Source of the DNA: Deltaproteobacteria bacterium
GTDB taxonomy: Bacteria; Desulfobacterota; Desulfobaccia; Desulfobaccales; 0-14-0-80-60-11
Assembly: GCA_021813445.1 (NCBI GenBank)
Contig: JAKAKP010000097.1
Coordinates: 1-32,868, forward strand
DNA length: 32,868 bases
Reading direction: 5' to 3'
The position numbers and the translations under genes are program-made. The first letter of the stretch is position 1. Each line of letters begins with the position of its first letter. Of the stretch, positions 7,193 to 28,002 are shown piece after piece. Under the pieces are notes generated by a model. That model was not told the origin of the DNA and did not search any database. It saw only the letters and a program-made list of their open reading frames with translations.

Positions 7193-7442
7193 AATCCCCC
7201 TCCTTTCCAGAAGCTGCATACGAAAACCGATTTGGGGCCGAAAGTTTATGACCTTAGGAAATAAGCTTTACTCACGCGACGATGCGGCGCTGGCAAAGAA
7301 ATTCGGCCCCTTGACAGAATTGCCCATACTTCCCCCAAGTTTATCGCTACCATTTTAGCAAGGCCCTAGGGGATGTCCATTAATTTTTGTATAAATTTTC
7401 AGAATAGGTATTTTTACCTAAGTTAATGAGCATTTAGAAAAT

Positions 7443-19668: not shown

Positions 19669-19697
19669 TTGACATCAATTTCTTTTAGAAGTAAATT
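19669..19697 (+). promoter_or_regulatory. Probable promoter of metV-metF
   Basis: A consensus TTGACA (19669-19674) and TAAATT (19692-19697) are 17 bases apart. The predicted start near 19704 gives a leader of roughly 197 bases before metV, long enough to contain a small upstream frame. Confidence 0.5.
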
Positions 19698-19901
19698 GTG
19701 AATAGAAGTACAATATCTTACCGGAAGGATCGGTTTTTCCTGGCCTTTCGGGAGATAATTGATCATATCCCCAGCCTTCCCACCTGTGAGCTTTTCGTGC
19801 CGGCAGCAGGAACTTCCTGCGGCACTGAAGCGCAAAAACTGCGGCGGGCCCTGAGCAATCTGTCATCTGCTCTGGATTTCTGGGATGAGGAGGAGCCTTA
19901 A
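19698..19901 (+). CDS. Possible small protein or upstream frame before metV
   Basis: An open frame of up to 67 codons ends exactly at the metV start, with TAATG shared between stop and start. It ends in an acidic DFWDEEEP, and the GAGGAGGAG that encodes this end also serves as the metV ribosome-binding site. The first GTG would lie before the predicted transcript start, so if it is translated the true start must be a later, non-ATG codon. The sequence has two cysteines and matches no family I recognise. It may be a coupling leader frame or chance. Weakly supported. Confidence 0.3.
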   Translation: MNRSTISYRKDRFFLAFREIIDHIPSLPTCELFVPAAGTSCGTEAQKLRRALSNLSSALDFWDEEEP

Positions 19902-22470: not shown

Positions 22471-22537
22471 GTAGGGGCGGGCGTCCTCGCCCGCCCTGTG
22501 CAGGGTTGTGCATGGCAGGCGAGACGCCTGCCACTAC
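22471..22537. repeat. Inverted REP pair upstream of the RAYT gene
   Basis: GTAG (22471-22474) plus GGGCGGGCG-tcct-CGCCCGCCC is followed by the inverted GGCAGGCG-aga-CGCCTGCC-ACTAC (CTAC 22534-22537). The second element ends 12 bases before the transposase start. Confidence 0.85.
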
Positions 22538-22549
22538 GAGAATGAGACC

Positions 22550-23020
22550 ATGACCAAGCCGCCCTCAGAAGAGCTGGTCATCTACCAAAGAAGGATGTCC
22601 CATTGGCGGTTATCTGGCTCAGTGTATTTTGTCACCTGGCGCTTGGAGTTTTCTCAATCTGAACTGACCCCGGACGAACGCGCCGTGATTATGTCGGCCC
22701 TCAAGCACTTTAATAATCAACGATACGAACTTTTTGCCGGTGTGGTTATGCATAATCACGTGCATGTCCTGGTCAAGTCTTTGGGAGATTATCGTCTGCA
22801 AGACCTCGTCCAGTCCTGGAAATCTTTCACTGCCCATAAGCTTAACCAGGATTACCACCGAAAAGTCCCCATCTGGCAAAAGGAGTATTTTGACCGCATT
22901 GTCAGGGATGAGAGGGAATTTTTAGATAAGGCCCAGTACATCATCAACAACCCCCTGAAACAATGGCCAGAGATGGAAGATTATCCCTGGGTTTGGATTA
23001 AGGAGGACCTAAGACCATAA
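22550..23020 (+). CDS. REP-associated tyrosine transposase (RAYT, Y1/HUH family)
   Basis: Single-strand DNA endonuclease related to IS200/IS605 transposases, predicted to cut and mobilise REP hairpins. Its 156 residues carry the HUH motif in MHNHVHVL (H70-x-H72) and the likely catalytic Y130 in KAQYIINNPLK, the usual Y-I-x-x-N-P context. I chose the ATG at 22550. A frame running 14 codons further upstream would translate the REP itself. The coding sequence is visibly less GC-rich than its neighbours, suggesting acquisition. It sits alone between two inverted REP pairs, with no TnpB. RAYTs are usually single-copy and long-lived in genomes. Confidence 0.92.
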   Translation: MTKPPSEELVIYQRRMSHWRLSGSVYFVTWRLEFSQSELTPDERAVIMSALKHFNNQRYELFAGVVMHNHVHVLVKSLGDYRLQDLVQSWKSFTAHKLNQDYHRKVPIWQKEYFDRIVRDEREFLDKAQYIINNPLKQWPEMEDYPWVWIKEDLRP

Positions 23021-23113: not shown

Positions 23114-23163
23114 GAGATATATGGGATTTTGATCGGTGACGATTTATGAAAGGAGATTTTGAG

Positions 23164-25050
23164 ATGGCTCCCCAAGATACTCAACAACAAAGCATCTCCA
23201 TTCAACCCGACACCCTGGCTTTAAAAGAAAAGGCCCGCCAGGAAGGCCTGGAGACCATCTGGGACCGCTTTCAAGCGCAGCAGCCCCAGTGCGGCTTTTG
23301 TGATCTGGGGCTCTCCTGCCGCATCTGCGTCATGGGGCCCTGCCGCCTCGATCCCTTTGGCGACGGTCCCCAGCGGGGGGTGTGCGGCGCGGACGCGGAC
23401 ATCATGGTGGCCCGCAATCTGGCCCGCATGGTGGCCGCGGGCGCGGCTTCCCACTCCGACCATGGCCGGGACCTGGTGGAGACGCTGTACGCCGTGGCTG
23501 AAGGCAAAGCCCCGGGCTACCGGATCACCGACCCGGAGAAGCTCGCCCGGCTGGCCGCAGAATTCGGCGTCGCCGCGGACCTGCCCCCGGCCGCCCAGGC
23601 CAAGGAACTGGCGTTGGCCTTGATGGAGGAATACGGCATCAAAAAGGGCTTTCTCCAATTCACCAAGCGCCTGCCCGCGGCCCGGCTGGAGAAATGGGCC
23701 AAACTGGGCCTCGCGCCCCGGGGCATCGATTGGGAAATCTCGGAGATGCTGCACCGCACCCACATGGGCGTGGACAACGACGCGGTGAATATTCTCCTCC
23801 AGGCCTTGCGTTCGGCCCTGGCCGACGGCTGGGGGGGCTCCATGATCGCCACCGAGGTCTCCGACATCCTCTTCGGCACGCCCCAGCCCGTGGCCTCCCA
23901 GGTCAATATGGGGGTGCTGAAAAAAGACCAGGTGAACATCATCCTCCACGGCCACAGCCCCCTGGTCTCGGAGATGGTGGCCCAGGCCGCGCAGGACCCG
24001 GCCCTGCTGCAACGGGCCAGGGATCTGGGGGCCCAGGGCATCAACCTGGCGGGGCTCTGCTGCACGGGCAACGAAGTCCTGATGCGCAAAGGCATCCCCA
24101 TGGCCGGCAACCACCTGCTCCAGGAACTGGCTATCGTCACCGGCGCGGTGGAGGCCATGGTGGTGGATTACCAGTGCATCATGCCTTCCGTGCCGGAGAT
24201 GGCTTCCTGCTACCACACCCTCTTTTTCACCACCTATGACAAGGCCAAGTTCCCCAAGGCGAAGCACCTCTCCTTTTCTCCGGAGAACGGCGCGGCCCTG
24301 GGCCGGGAGTTGGTCGCCCAGGCCGTGGAGAATTTTGCCCGCCGGGACCCGCAGCGGGTGTCCATCCCGGGCGTGGCCCAGGCCCAGGTTTCGGGCTTTT
24401 CCATTGAGGCCATCGTCGCGGCGCTGGGGGGCACGCCCGGCCCCTTGCTGGACGCGGTCAAGGCCGGACAGATCCGGGGTGCGGTGGGGGTGGTGGGCTG
24501 CAATAATCCCAAGATCACCCAGGATTACGGCCATGTCAATTTGACCAAGGCCCTCATTGCCGCGGACATCCTGGTCCTGGACACCGGCTGCGCCGCGGTG
24601 GCCCACGCCAAGGCGGGCTTCAAGACGCCCGGGGCCGCGGACCTGGCCGGACCGGGTCTCAAAGCCGTGTGCCGGGCTCTGGGGATTCCGCCGGTGCTGC
24701 ATATGGGCTCCTGCGTGGACAACACCCGCATCATCAACCTCTGCGCCGCCCTGGCCGGAGCCCTGGGGGTGGACCTGGATATGTTGCCGGTGGCTGCGGC
24801 CGCGCCGGAATGGTATTCGGAGAAGGCCGCAACCATTGCCTGCTACGCGGTGGCCAGCGGCGTCTTCACCGTTTTGGGAGTGGCGCCCCCGGTCCTGGGG
24901 AGTGCGGCGGTGACGGATTTGCTCTTGAATGGCCTGGAAGGACATCTGGGGGCCAAATTCGCGGTGGAGCCGGACCCGGCCAAGGCCGCGGCCCTGATCT
25001 TCAGCCACATTGAGGGCAAAAGGCGGGCGTTGGGGTTGGACGCCCGTTAA
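23164..25050 (+). CDS. cooS: Anaerobic carbon monoxide dehydrogenase, catalytic subunit
   Basis: Ni-Fe-S enzyme that interconverts CO and CO2, cytoplasmic or membrane-associated depending on partners. The 628 residues keep all C-cluster ligands: H262 (HGHSP), C300 (GLCCTGNE), C338 (YQCIMPS), C446 (VGCNNPK), C476 (DTGCAAVAHA) and C517 (GSCVDN). The active-site lysine K554 (YSEKA) and H97 (SHSDHGR) are also present. B-cluster cysteines C52, C55, C60 and C74 are intact. The D-cluster is C43-x2-C46, the short type reported to hold a [2Fe-2S] cluster in the Desulfovibrio vulgaris enzyme. I chose this ATG because GGAG lies at good spacing; an in-frame ATG lies six codons upstream. No cooC, cooF, acsB or other ACS genes are in the window. 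Confidence 0.96.
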   Translation: MAPQDTQQQSISIQPDTLALKEKARQEGLETIWDRFQAQQPQCGFCDLGLSCRICVMGPCRLDPFGDGPQRGVCGADADIMVARNLARMVAAGAASHSDHGRDLVETLYAVAEGKAPGYRITDPEKLARLAAEFGVAADLPPAAQAKELALALMEEYGIKKGFLQFTKRLPAARLEKWAKLGLAPRGIDWEISEMLHRTHMGVDNDAVNILLQALRSALADGWGGSMIATEVSDILFGTPQPVASQVNMGVLKKDQVNIILHGHSPLVSEMVAQAAQDPALLQRARDLGAQGINLAGLCCTGNEVLMRKGIPMAGNHLLQELAIVTGAVEAMVVDYQCIMPSVPEMASCYHTLFFTTYDKAKFPKAKHLSFSPENGAALGRELVAQAVENFARRDPQRVSIPGVAQAQVSGFSIEAIVAALGGTPGPLLDAVKAGQIRGAVGVVGCNNPKITQDYGHVNLTKALIAADILVLDTGCAAVAHAKAGFKTPGAADLAGPGLKAVCRALGIPPVLHMGSCVDNTRIINLCAALAGALGVDLDMLPVAAAAPEWYSEKAATIACYAVASGVFTVLGVAPPVLGSAAVTDLLLNGLEGHLGAKFAVEPDPAKAAALIFSHIEGKRRALGLDAR

Positions 25051-25299: not shown

Positions 25300-25351
25300 G
25301 GACGGGCTTCCTCGCCCGCCTCGTAATGGCGCAGGCTGGAAAGCCTGCGCC
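25296..25351. repeat. REP pair overlapping the stop codon of the small membrane protein
   Basis: GTAG (25296-25299) includes the TAG stop and is followed by GGACGGGC-ttcct-CGCCCGCC. A second hairpin GCGCAGGCT-ggaa-AGCCTGCGC (25329-25350) is the same class as the one at 8451-8472, in opposite orientation and without a clear foot. Confidence 0.65.
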
Positions 25352-25427
25352 CGATAGCCTGGCATAGATTATTCTCAAACAATTGGACCTGGTGAACCCT
25401 TAATCAACTGTGCCCCAGCCGAAAAAG

Positions 25428-25447
25428 GTGCGTGAGACTCACCACTA
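25428..25447 (-). repeat. Degenerate REP-like hairpin with CTAC foot
   Basis: GTGCGTGAG-act-CACCAC then CTAC, a short and imperfect stem. The remainder of the 384-base gap before nfnA holds only the regulatory sites below. Confidence 0.4.
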
Positions 25448-25541
25448 CGATTTTTCCGGCAACCCTTTTCTAGGTCCAGCGGCCTGTCCCCTCCCCGCTA
25501 TATTTGCTGAATAACCTGAAAACCAAAAACTGAAAAATGAT

Positions 25542-25559
25542 TTGTGATATTTATCACTT
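25542..25559 (+). promoter_or_regulatory. CRP/FNR-family operator upstream of nfnA
   Basis: TTGTGA-N6-TCACTT is a near-palindrome of the TGTGA-N6-TCACA type bound by CRP/FNR-family regulators. The desulfobacterial HcpR site is described as TTGTGA-N6-TCACAA. The left half is a full match and the right half differs at two of six bases. Its centre is about 41.5 bases upstream of the predicted transcript start, the classic activator position. Confidence 0.5.
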
Positions 25560-25585
25560 GATTCTTGCCCTGGAGCCGTGATAAT
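25558..25585 (+). promoter_or_regulatory. Probable promoter of nfnA-nfnB
   Basis: TTGATT (25558-25563) and GATAAT (25580-25585) are 16 bases apart. The -35 element abuts the CRP/FNR-like palindrome. The predicted leader is about 92 bases. Confidence 0.45.
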
Positions 25586-25683
25586 TATTGACGGTTATAG
25601 AGGAGAAAAAGGCTGGCGCCAGGCCGGCCGTCAAGAGATGTCCTGAGAAATCAAATAATTATACGAATCGAGGAGAGGCGCGT

Positions 25684-26541
25684 ATGTTTGAAATAGTGGA
25701 ACGCCAGGAATTGGCCCAGGGGACGATCATCAGCAACTGGATTAAGGCCCCCAAGATTGCCGCCAAGGCCAAGCCGGGGCAGTTCGTCATCCTGCGGGCC
25801 AATGAGACGGGGGAGCGCATTCCCCTGACCATGGCGGATACCGATCCGGCCAAGGGCCTGATCAACATCATTTACATGGTGGTGGGCAAGAGCACGGCCC
25901 TGTTTAAAACCTTGAAGGTCGGCCAGGGTTACCTGGACGTCATCGGCCCCCTGGGGCAACCCACCCACCTGGAGAAAGTGGGGAAGGTCATCTGCGTCGG
26001 CGGCGGCACCGGGGTGGCGGTGCTGCACCCCATCACCCGGGGCCTGAAGCAGGTGGGCAATTACGTCTATGGGGTCATCGGCGCCCGCAGCAAAGACCTG
26101 CTCATCATGGAAGACCGGATGAAGGCCGCGTCCAATGAGCTGATGATCTGCACCGATGACGGCACCTATGGTCACAAAGGCTTCGTCACCGACAAGCTCA
26201 GGGAAACCCTGCAAAAGGATAAGGACATTAAACTGGCCGTGTGCATCGGCCCGGTGCCCATGATGAAGTTCTGCTGCAAAGTGACCGAGGAGTTCGGGGT
26301 CAAAACGCTGGTGAGCCTCAACCCCATCATGGTGGACGGCACCGGCATGTGCGGCTGCTGCCGGGTGAAGGTGGCGGACAAGATGCAGTTCGCCTGCGTG
26401 GACGGCCCCGAGTTCGACGGCCATCAGGTGGACTGGGATGAGCTGAATCTGCGCCTGCGCTCTTATATGGTGGAAGAAAAGGTTTCCTACGACCAGTTCA
26501 AGGAATGCCACGGCGGCGGGAAATGCTCCTGCTGCAGCTAA
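25684..26541 (+). CDS. nfnA: NfnA-type ferredoxin-NADP reductase, small subunit of the NfnAB transhydrogenase
   Basis: FAD- and [2Fe-2S]-containing subunit of the NADH-dependent reduced-ferredoxin:NADP oxidoreductase, which bifurcates electrons between ferredoxin, NAD and NADP. The 285 residues have a ferredoxin-reductase fold. The NAD-binding CVGGGTGVAVLHP block is near 104-116, and the late C223-x2-C226 with C238 (and nearby D218) fits the one-Asp, three-Cys cluster known in NfnA. The C-terminus ends in a cysteine-rich GGGKCSCCS that I do not recall from characterised NfnA. I chose the internal ATG with GAGGAGAGG before it. A frame extending 32 codons further upstream is implausible because it lacks family similarity. 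Confidence 0.9.
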   Translation: MFEIVERQELAQGTIISNWIKAPKIAAKAKPGQFVILRANETGERIPLTMADTDPAKGLINIIYMVVGKSTALFKTLKVGQGYLDVIGPLGQPTHLEKVGKVICVGGGTGVAVLHPITRGLKQVGNYVYGVIGARSKDLLIMEDRMKAASNELMICTDDGTYGHKGFVTDKLRETLQKDKDIKLAVCIGPVPMMKFCCKVTEEFGVKTLVSLNPIMVDGTGMCGCCRVKVADKMQFACVDGPEFDGHQVDWDELNLRLRSYMVEEKVSYDQFKECHGGGKCSCCS

Positions 26542-26583: not shown

Positions 26584-28002
26584 ATGACGGAAGAAGTCAA
26601 GGCCCCTAAAAAAGAAAAGATCCCCAGGCAGAAGATGCCGGAGCAGCCCGCCACCGAGCGGCGCCGCAACTTTCAGGAAGTGCCCTACGGCTACACCCCG
26701 GAGCTGGCTATGCATGAAGCGGAGCGCTGCATTCAGTGCAAAGACCCCCGCTGCCGCCAGGGCTGCCCGGTAGAAATCGAAATTCCTGCCTTTATCAAGT
26801 GCCTCAAGGAAGGCGACTTTGAAGGCGCCATCCGCAAGATCTGGGAGAAAAACTCCCTGCCCGCAGTGTGCGGCCGGGTCTGTCCCCAGGAAGTGCAGTG
26901 CGAAGGCATGTGCATCCTCGGCAAAAAAGACGCGCCCGTGGCCATCGGCAACCTGGAGCGCTTCGCGGCCGACTATCAGCGGGAGAAAGGCAAGCAGATC
27001 CTGCCCCCCAAGGCTCCTGCCACCGGCAAAAAGGTGGCGGTGGTGGGCGCGGGCCCCTCAGGCCTGACCGTGGCCGGCGACCTGCTCCTCAAGGGCCATG
27101 AGGTCCACATTTTCGAGGCCCTGCACGGCCCCGGCGGCGTTTTGCTCTACGGCATCCCGGAATTCCGCCTGCCCAAGGCCATCGTCGCCCAGGAGTGCAA
27201 CTTCCTGGAGCGCATGGGCGCCAAAATCGAGGTTAATTCGGTCATCGGCCGCTCGGAGACCGTGGATGAATTGCTGGAGAAGTTCGACGCCATCTTCCTG
27301 GGCGTGGGCGCGGGCCTGCCGGTGTTTCTGAAGATTCCCGGGGAGCACTTCATCGGGGTTTATTCCGCCAACGAGTACCTGACCCGCTCCAACCTGATGA
27401 AGGCCTATAGCTTCCCCGAATACGACACCCCCATCGTCAAAGGCAAGAACGTGGCCACCTTCGGGGGCGGCAACGTGGCCATGGACTGCGCCCGCACCGC
27501 GCTGCGCCTGGGCGCGGACCATTCCTACATCATCTACCGGCGCTCCATGGCGGAACTGCCGGCCCGGACCGCGGAAGTCCACCACGCCGAGGAAGAGGGC
27601 GTGGAATTCCTGCTGCTCAACAACCCGGTGCGTTTCCTGGGCGATGAGGCCACCGGGCGGCTCACCGGCGTCGAGGTCTTGAAGATGGAACTGGGCGAAC
27701 CTGACGCGTCCGGGCGGCGGCGGCCGGTGCCCATCGCCGGCTCCGAATACACCGTGGACATCGACACCGCGGTCATCGCCATCGGCTCCGGCTCGAACCC
27801 CTTGCTCACCAAGAGCACCCCGGGCCTGGCCCTGAACAAGTGGGGCTATATCGTGGCCGACCCCAAGACCGGCAAGACCATGAAACCCCGGGTCTGGGCC
27901 GGCGGCGACATCGTCACCGGTTCGGCCACCGTCATTTTGGCCATGGGCGCGGGCCGCATGGCGTCGAACTCCATCCATGATTATCTGACCATGGGGTGGT
28001 AA
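26584..28002 (+). CDS. nfnB: NfnB-type large subunit of the NfnAB transhydrogenase (glutamate-synthase beta-like)
   Basis: FAD and [4Fe-4S] subunit that carries the bifurcating flavin and binds NADP(H). The 472 residues begin with the two cysteine sets for [4Fe-4S] clusters: C49, C52, C57, C61 and C96, C100, C106, C110. The FAD motif GAGPSG is at 155-160, and a second dinucleotide motif GGGNVAMD is at about 300. Lone GltB-like beta proteins (glutamate synthase small subunit) look similar, but the adjacent nfnA gene decides the call. The gap is 42 bases with a GAAGGAGAAGG site. It ends at a terminator shared with the converging cluster. Confidence 0.92.
   Translation: MTEEVKAPKKEKIPRQKMPEQPATERRRNFQEVPYGYTPELAMHEAERCIQCKDPRCRQGCPVEIEIPAFIKCLKEGDFEGAIRKIWEKNSLPAVCGRVCPQEVQCEGMCILGKKDAPVAIGNLERFAADYQREKGKQILPPKAPATGKKVAVVGAGPSGLTVAGDLLLKGHEVHIFEALHGPGGVLLYGIPEFRLPKAIVAQECNFLERMGAKIEVNSVIGRSETVDELLEKFDAIFLGVGAGLPVFLKIPGEHFIGVYSANEYLTRSNLMKAYSFPEYDTPIVKGKNVATFGGGNVAMDCARTALRLGADHSYIIYRRSMAELPARTAEVHHAEEEGVEFLLLNNPVRFLGDEATGRLTGVEVLKMELGEPDASGRRRPVPIAGSEYTVDIDTAVIAIGSGSNPLLTKSTPGLALNKWGYIVADPKTGKTMKPRVWAGGDIVTGSATVILAMGAGRMASNSIHDYLTMGW

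Follow-up and report, generated by a model that had tools for sequence, protein, structure and literature searches.

Rex is a repressor that senses NADH, and its operator in Staphylococcus aureus is given as TTGTGAAW4TTCACAA (PMC2883068). In D. vulgaris, Rex represses sat under the control of NADH, as the title of a paper cited by PMC11451228 states, and nfn of C. kluyveri is reported to be under Rex control (PMC6405883). A very similar site, TGTGA-N6-TCACA, is described for HcpR1 in a report that also finds Rex binding sites to be identical to those of HcpR1, and that bases its proposed HcpR regulons on a CRP-like signature of R, E and R at helix positions 1, 2 and 6 (PMC5701242). As for the enzymes involved, Stn and Nfn are reported to be almost mutually exclusive in acetogens (PMC7483475).

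Here we examined the nfnAB locus in a window of 32,868 nucleotides, the whole stretch of DNA analysed, from a genome of 4.18 Mb in 166 contigs, and compared it with Desulfobacca-type metagenome-assembled genomes. NfnA and NfnB are homologous to solved NfnAB over almost their full length, and with close solved relatives for both subunits we saw no notable difference from the known electron-bifurcating transhydrogenase. The sequence TTGTGATATTTATCACTT, made up of TTGTGA (25542-25547), TATTTA and TCACTT (25554-25559) with its centre at 25550.5, was found 125 bp 5' of the nfnA start codon (Table 1). Ten of the 12 arm positions fit a perfect palindrome and the remaining two deviate, the right arm being TCACTT; CACTT ends were also present at rex and dsr sites. 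Like the Rex operator of S. aureus, this is an 18-bp TTGTGA-N6-TCAC palindrome with an A/T-only centre that overlaps a promoter, with redox genes downstream and rex encoded in the genome, but its right end is TT instead of AA and it overlaps a sigma-70-like -35 element at a fixed spacing. The core half-sites are also those of the HcpR1/CRP site (PMC5701242), whereas the genome encodes no regulator with a matching helix and the hcp promoter of the family uses another palindrome.

Table 1. Features of the nfnAB and metV-metF regions, in window coordinates.
Feature	Position	Strand	Basis
Putative Rex-type operator TTGTGATATTTATCACTT 5' of nfnAB	25542..25559	+	Sequence; 25/25 family promoters; top hit of rex/dsr matrix
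-35 element TTGATT, first two bases common to operator right end	25558..25563	+	TTG 25/25, last T 24/25
Probable extended -10 (TG-A-TAATTA)	25579..25587	+	T25579, G25580, T25582, A25583 25/25; A25586 22/25
Inferred transcription start region	25592..25594	+	Predicted from -10 position only
nfnA ribosome-binding site AGGAGAGG	25671..25678	+	Sequence
nfnA, NADH/FAD subunit of bifurcating transhydrogenase	25684..26541	+	PDB 5jca_S E 5e-89, 4ylf_A E 8e-88
nfnB, NADPH subunit	26584..28002	+	PDB 4ylf_B E 2e-167, 5jca_L E 1e-156
Second Rex-like site TTGTGAATAGAAGTACAA 5' of metV-metF	19696..19713	+	Third-best matrix hit in window, 16.7 bits

The conserved operator-promoter block of nfnAB

The pattern TTGTGA-N6-TCAC was present as a single copy in the window, while at least one copy arose in 6 of 100 shuffles; genome-wide there were two copies and none of the reversed pattern. 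A strong match to nfnA was found in 18 of the 22 family genomes. Our promoter comparison covered 21 nfnAB promoters (the window, L018-L034, L054, L055 and L058) together with four promoters of the replacement operons described below; contigs L041-L053, L056 and L057 were excluded as repeats of the window or of other contig loci. Over these 25 promoters, which were chosen with a pattern fixing most palindrome positions (all 25 supplied loci matched and none was dropped), the mean pairwise identity of the 18-bp operator was 96.7%, and that of the flanks of the block was 29% in the 40 bp on the 5' side and 39% in the bases past 25592. In the 21 nfnAB promoters the palindrome and a CNTGNTA extended -10 were nearly invariant at constant spacing, and the central six bases of the operator were more conserved than at rex or dsr sites. 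Outside this alignment stood six nfnA relatives that lack the site: scans of 400 bp 5' of the gene revealed no Rex-like site in Desulfobacca sp. 4484_104 (L035, nfnA 78% identical) and no comparable site in the outgroups L036-L040. The conserved operator block at nfnAB is not a product of chance, its spacing being fixed in all 25 family promoters. The palindrome next to a TTGATT-N16-GATAAT promoter, with which the original prediction began, is thus present and is conserved throughout the family promoters compared.

The promoter itself required adjustment. GATAAT does lie at 25580-25585, 16 bases from TTGATT, but it was poorly kept, its second base being G in 14 and T in one of the 25 promoters. 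The bases C25577, T25579, G25580, T25582 and A25583 were invariant and suit an extended -10, TGnTAnnAN, better than GATAAT, making this the probable -10 element judging from the alignment. It would move the predicted start to about 25594 and the centre of the palindrome to about -43.5, instead of the -41.5 given by GATAAT, both values being counted from predicted starts. The original prediction had read this as the position of a class II activator. The 'class II' position means that the operator overlaps the -35 element, so that a repressor can act there equally; the position alone would suit an activator too, and geometry does not decide between repression and activation. No leader terminator was detected in 25300-25700, and a structured RNA at the site was rejected, since an Rfam search with E values up to 1 gave just two matches, both to lncRNA families and both falling well short of the gathering score. 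Further upstream, an IS200/Y1-type transposase gene (22508-23020) lies just 5' of cooS (23146-25050), and in several relatives cooS is 5-8 kb from nfnA; the transposase-cooS-nfnA arrangement of the window may be a local rearrangement.

Rex and CRP/FNR regulators and their sites

The genome encodes a canonical Rex (G000:C61, L117) with a DNA-binding N-terminus and an NADH-binding Rossmann fold. It scored 301.6 bits with the NCBIfam equivalog NF003993 (cut-off 217), aligned to solved Rex proteins (PDB 5zz5, E 2e-53) and had the QIRKDL-YFGEFG segment in common with its best solved match. The Rex family model gave a hit in 21 of 22 family genomes, the exception being G003, which is 72% complete. 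Upstream of rex, a G-rich hairpin followed by a TTGTG-N8-CAC type site was found by pattern in 16 of 21 loci, and the other five had variants of the site recognized by eye. A TTGTGA-N6-TCACAA-like site, deviating at no more than 3 of 12 positions, was present 5' of the RsbRD gene, which itself precedes dsrM, in all 19 loci scanned, and its sequence differed between genera. The scan did not include L177, which is short, or L187, which is the second half of a match that had been split. In L174-L176, from G002, G004 and G003 of one genus, a longer inverted repeat, TGTGAATGTTTTAACATTCACTA, overlaps the dsr-upstream site.

A Rex matrix was trained on 21 distinct sites upstream of rex and dsr, with the nfn sites excluded. 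Its consensus, TTGTGAAAATTTTCACAA, is the textbook Rex operator, partly by construction since the training sites were selected by their resemblance to TTGTG-N8-CAC. With this matrix the site at 25542 ranked first in the window with 19.8 bits (training sites 17.2-24.7), and only 1 in 3,000,000 Markov words scored as high. A dsr-only matrix again placed it first, and a rex-only matrix second (15.8 bits), behind 7387 (17.7 bits). That hit, TTGTATAAATTTTCAGAA at 7387-7404, is flanked by genes for an outer-membrane efflux protein (-) and for an NAD-dependent epimerase (+), and there is a resemblance to the hcp motif described below in TTTACCTAAGTTAA at 7413. Across the genome, TTGTGAW6TCACWW with up to two mismatches gave 67 strand-matches, in which palindromic places count twice, versus 12 for the reversed pattern. 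Rex-like sites were found 5' of sat, dsrM, nuoA and a Na/sulfate symporter gene, and ATGTGAAAATTTTCACAT, directly 5' of sat (L255 1474-1491; G000:C133), had the best score among the listed places of this genome, 26.5 bits. The matrix is not specific, several of its hits in the genome lying inside or near genes without a redox role. Adjoining sat (L255 1588-2439, -) is a gene for a protein in which a rubrerythrin domain is joined to an adenylate/guanylate cyclase domain. The site 5' of metV-metF is located near the -10 of a TTGACA-type promoter, suggesting that Wood-Ljungdahl genes belong to the same regulon as nfnAB.

The original prediction had assigned the palindrome to the CRP/FNR family and named HcpR as the regulator. 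Three complete proteins with a cNMP-binding and a Crp-type HTH domain are encoded in the genome; their recognition helices read SETLSR (L001) and HETFYR (L005, L007), and R-E-x3-R is absent from all three. This largely amounts to the lack of a CRP-type regulator with such specificity, which the original prediction had named as a refutation. Of the 22 family genomes, 21 had a gene whose helix could be read as the SETLSR type, and in eight of them it shared a contig with hcp at a distance of 4-5 kb. Among the best matches, which were the ones surveyed, HETFYR helices were confined to G000, G003, G013 and G018; L235 and L239-L241 gave no readable helix. CooA, which has a TGTC-type site, was considered because of the upstream cooS and set aside; the NCBIfam models hit by the three CRP/FNR proteins did not include one for CooA.

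The hcp promoters of the family carry a conserved palindrome of their own, TTGnCTTAAGnCAA, which is unlike the nfn site. A TAAGTCAA core was present at -101 to -153 in all 19 hcp promoters examined (L189-L207), and the exact TTGnCTTAAGTCAA in 16 of the 19. TTGA-type palindromes fit an FNR-like helix, and TTGnCTTAAGTCAA is probably the true HcpR/FNR-like site of the family. A model built from the hcp promoters gave a best score of -0.4 around the nfn site versus 18.8-25.5 at the motif's own sites. The best Rex-matrix score in the 300 bp 5' of hcp in the genome of the window was 11.8, the highest of the 19 hcp loci reached 14.2, and in 19 of 19 the best score was below that of every training site; no TTGTGA-N6-TCAC site was present in the own hcp promoter.

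Because the site is conserved and matches the rex and dsr sites of the family, Rex is present and a CRP-like helix is absent, we consider the palindrome to be a putative operator for the NADH-sensing repressor Rex, which would repress nfnAB by covering the -35 element and would be relieved by NADH (probability about 0.8). We infer Rex binding, repression and the NADH signal at nfnAB from what is established for Rex in general. At low NADH, a Rex dimer would occupy the palindrome and cover the -35 element, RNA polymerase would be excluded and nfnAB would be off; as NADH/NAD+ goes up, NADH-bound Rex would release and NfnAB would be produced. The output of NfnAB would balance NADH, NADPH and ferredoxin, alongside the other predicted Rex targets sat, dsr, nuo and rex. 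Some observations run counter to Rex: CRP/FNR genes of the SETLSR type occur in as many genomes as rex does (21/22 each), the class-II-like position, which also fits an activator, is fixed in 25 of 25 promoters, and L035 has nfnA but no such site. The two deviating bases of the right arm, the second rank with the rex-only matrix and the unspecific hits of the matrix weigh on the same side.

These observations bear on the reading that HcpR or another CRP/FNR protein activates nfnAB from the class II position upon NO or redox stress. TTGTGA-N6-TCAC does look like a site of CRP or of HcpR1, the -35 overlap at about -41.5 to -43.5 is constant, and HETFYR retains the E and R of the CRP helix, in which H could replace R. 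However, HETFYR was read, among the best matches, in four genomes only whereas the site is widespread, the widespread SETLSR type is FNR-like, and the helices of the three complete proteins and the TTGnCTTAAGnCAA palindrome at hcp both speak against such a regulator at the nfn site, as does the score of the hcp motif there. On the helices and the hcp promoters we rejected HcpR and class II activation, and regard it as improbable that a CRP/FNR activator works here. Membership of the CRP/FNR family and control of nfnAB by nitrosative stress are not supported, whereas its control by redox state, the other part of the same proposal, is supported. Competition of Rex with a CRP/FNR protein at the nfn palindrome, as suggested for Desulfovibrio HcpR1/Rex sites, is just as improbable as a CRP/FNR activator. 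The identity of Rex and HcpR1 sites (PMC5701242) and the high conservation of the central six bases at nfn favour such dual control, but the genome lacks a CRP-like helix among its three complete proteins and no further conserved half-site pattern was seen. Finally, with its -35 TTG and CNTGNTA invariant, the block might be a strong core promoter only, the palindrome having no dedicated regulator. The left arm TTGTGA, 5' of the -35 element, is also conserved, for which a plain core promoter has no need, and the same pattern was found again at rex, dsr and sat, making this explanation the least credible of those weighed here. A Rex site at Desulfobacca nfnAB was not found as already published in the open-licence literature searched. 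In sulfate reducers, sites of Rex are easily confused with those of HcpR/CRP; in this family the regulator helices and the hcp promoter allow the two to be separated.

A different enzyme behind the promoter in four genomes

We found that nfnA was absent from 4 of the 22 genomes, G003, G004, G005 and G018. In the replacement loci of these genomes (L146, L144, L145 and L242, respectively), the operator and -10 precede a two-gene operon. Its first gene encodes a StnB/HydB-like NuoF protein (8oh5_B, E 2e-227) that is NuoF-like with two extra C-terminal [4Fe-4S] sites, and its second an 842-aa protein made up of [2Fe-2S], GltD/NfnB-like and NuoE-like parts. The 842-aa protein had a full-length match in exactly these four genomes and in none of the other 18, the other three proteins being 82-86% identical to the G003 query. 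Compared with Stn as described (PMC7483475, PMC10482914), the StnB/HydB-like protein and the StnC-like [2Fe-2S] plus GltD part are the same, but there are two genes instead of three and the StnC-like part carries the StnA/NuoE-like part as a C-terminal fusion; StnC has a C-terminal FdhF/NuoG-like domain, which the replacement fusion lacks, and StnA is separate. Because the FdhF-like domain is absent and the NuoE-like part is fused, we named the replacement operon 'Stn-like', not Stn.

Remnants of nfnA were detected at two of the loci. The G018 locus has some 80 bp of decayed sequence from the 5' end of nfnA between the promoter and the new operon (alignment score 69; best of 2,000 shuffles 30), and G003 has kept roughly the first 25 bp of the gene (score 25, best shuffle 23), together with a collinear leader. 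The G004 and G005 loci lie about 5-6.5 kb away from cooS, much like nfnA in several relatives. The four genomes fall in three genera, each of which also has nfnAB genomes, so that an ancestral nfnAB would imply three or more replacements. The G004 fusion protein was 91.7% identical to that of G018, from another genus, and 85.8% to that of G003, from its own genus, whereas Hcp of G004 showed the opposite trend (80.6% to G018, 91.3% to G003). Since the fusion identities run opposite to those of Hcp, these sequences suggest that the fusion gene, at least, has spread laterally; the StnB-like protein of G004 tracks Hcp (90.2% to G018, 95.4% to G003). The alternative is an ancestor with both enzymes, followed by repeated loss.

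We lean, by a modest degree, towards the view that the Rex promoter is a fixed socket, behind which NfnAB or a two-gene Stn-like complex that spread between genera has been exchanged at least three times in the family, selection having kept the NADH-responsive control. The open-licence literature searched yielded no report of transhydrogenases exchanged in place behind a single operator. A Rex operator at nfnAB is ordinary in kind, and the enzyme swap adds interest, the exchange of NfnAB and the Stn-like complex being a natural test of whether the enzyme or its control is under selection. In Desulfobacca relatives, the prediction is that NADH/NAD+ would coordinate sulfate reduction, complex I and electron bifurcation.
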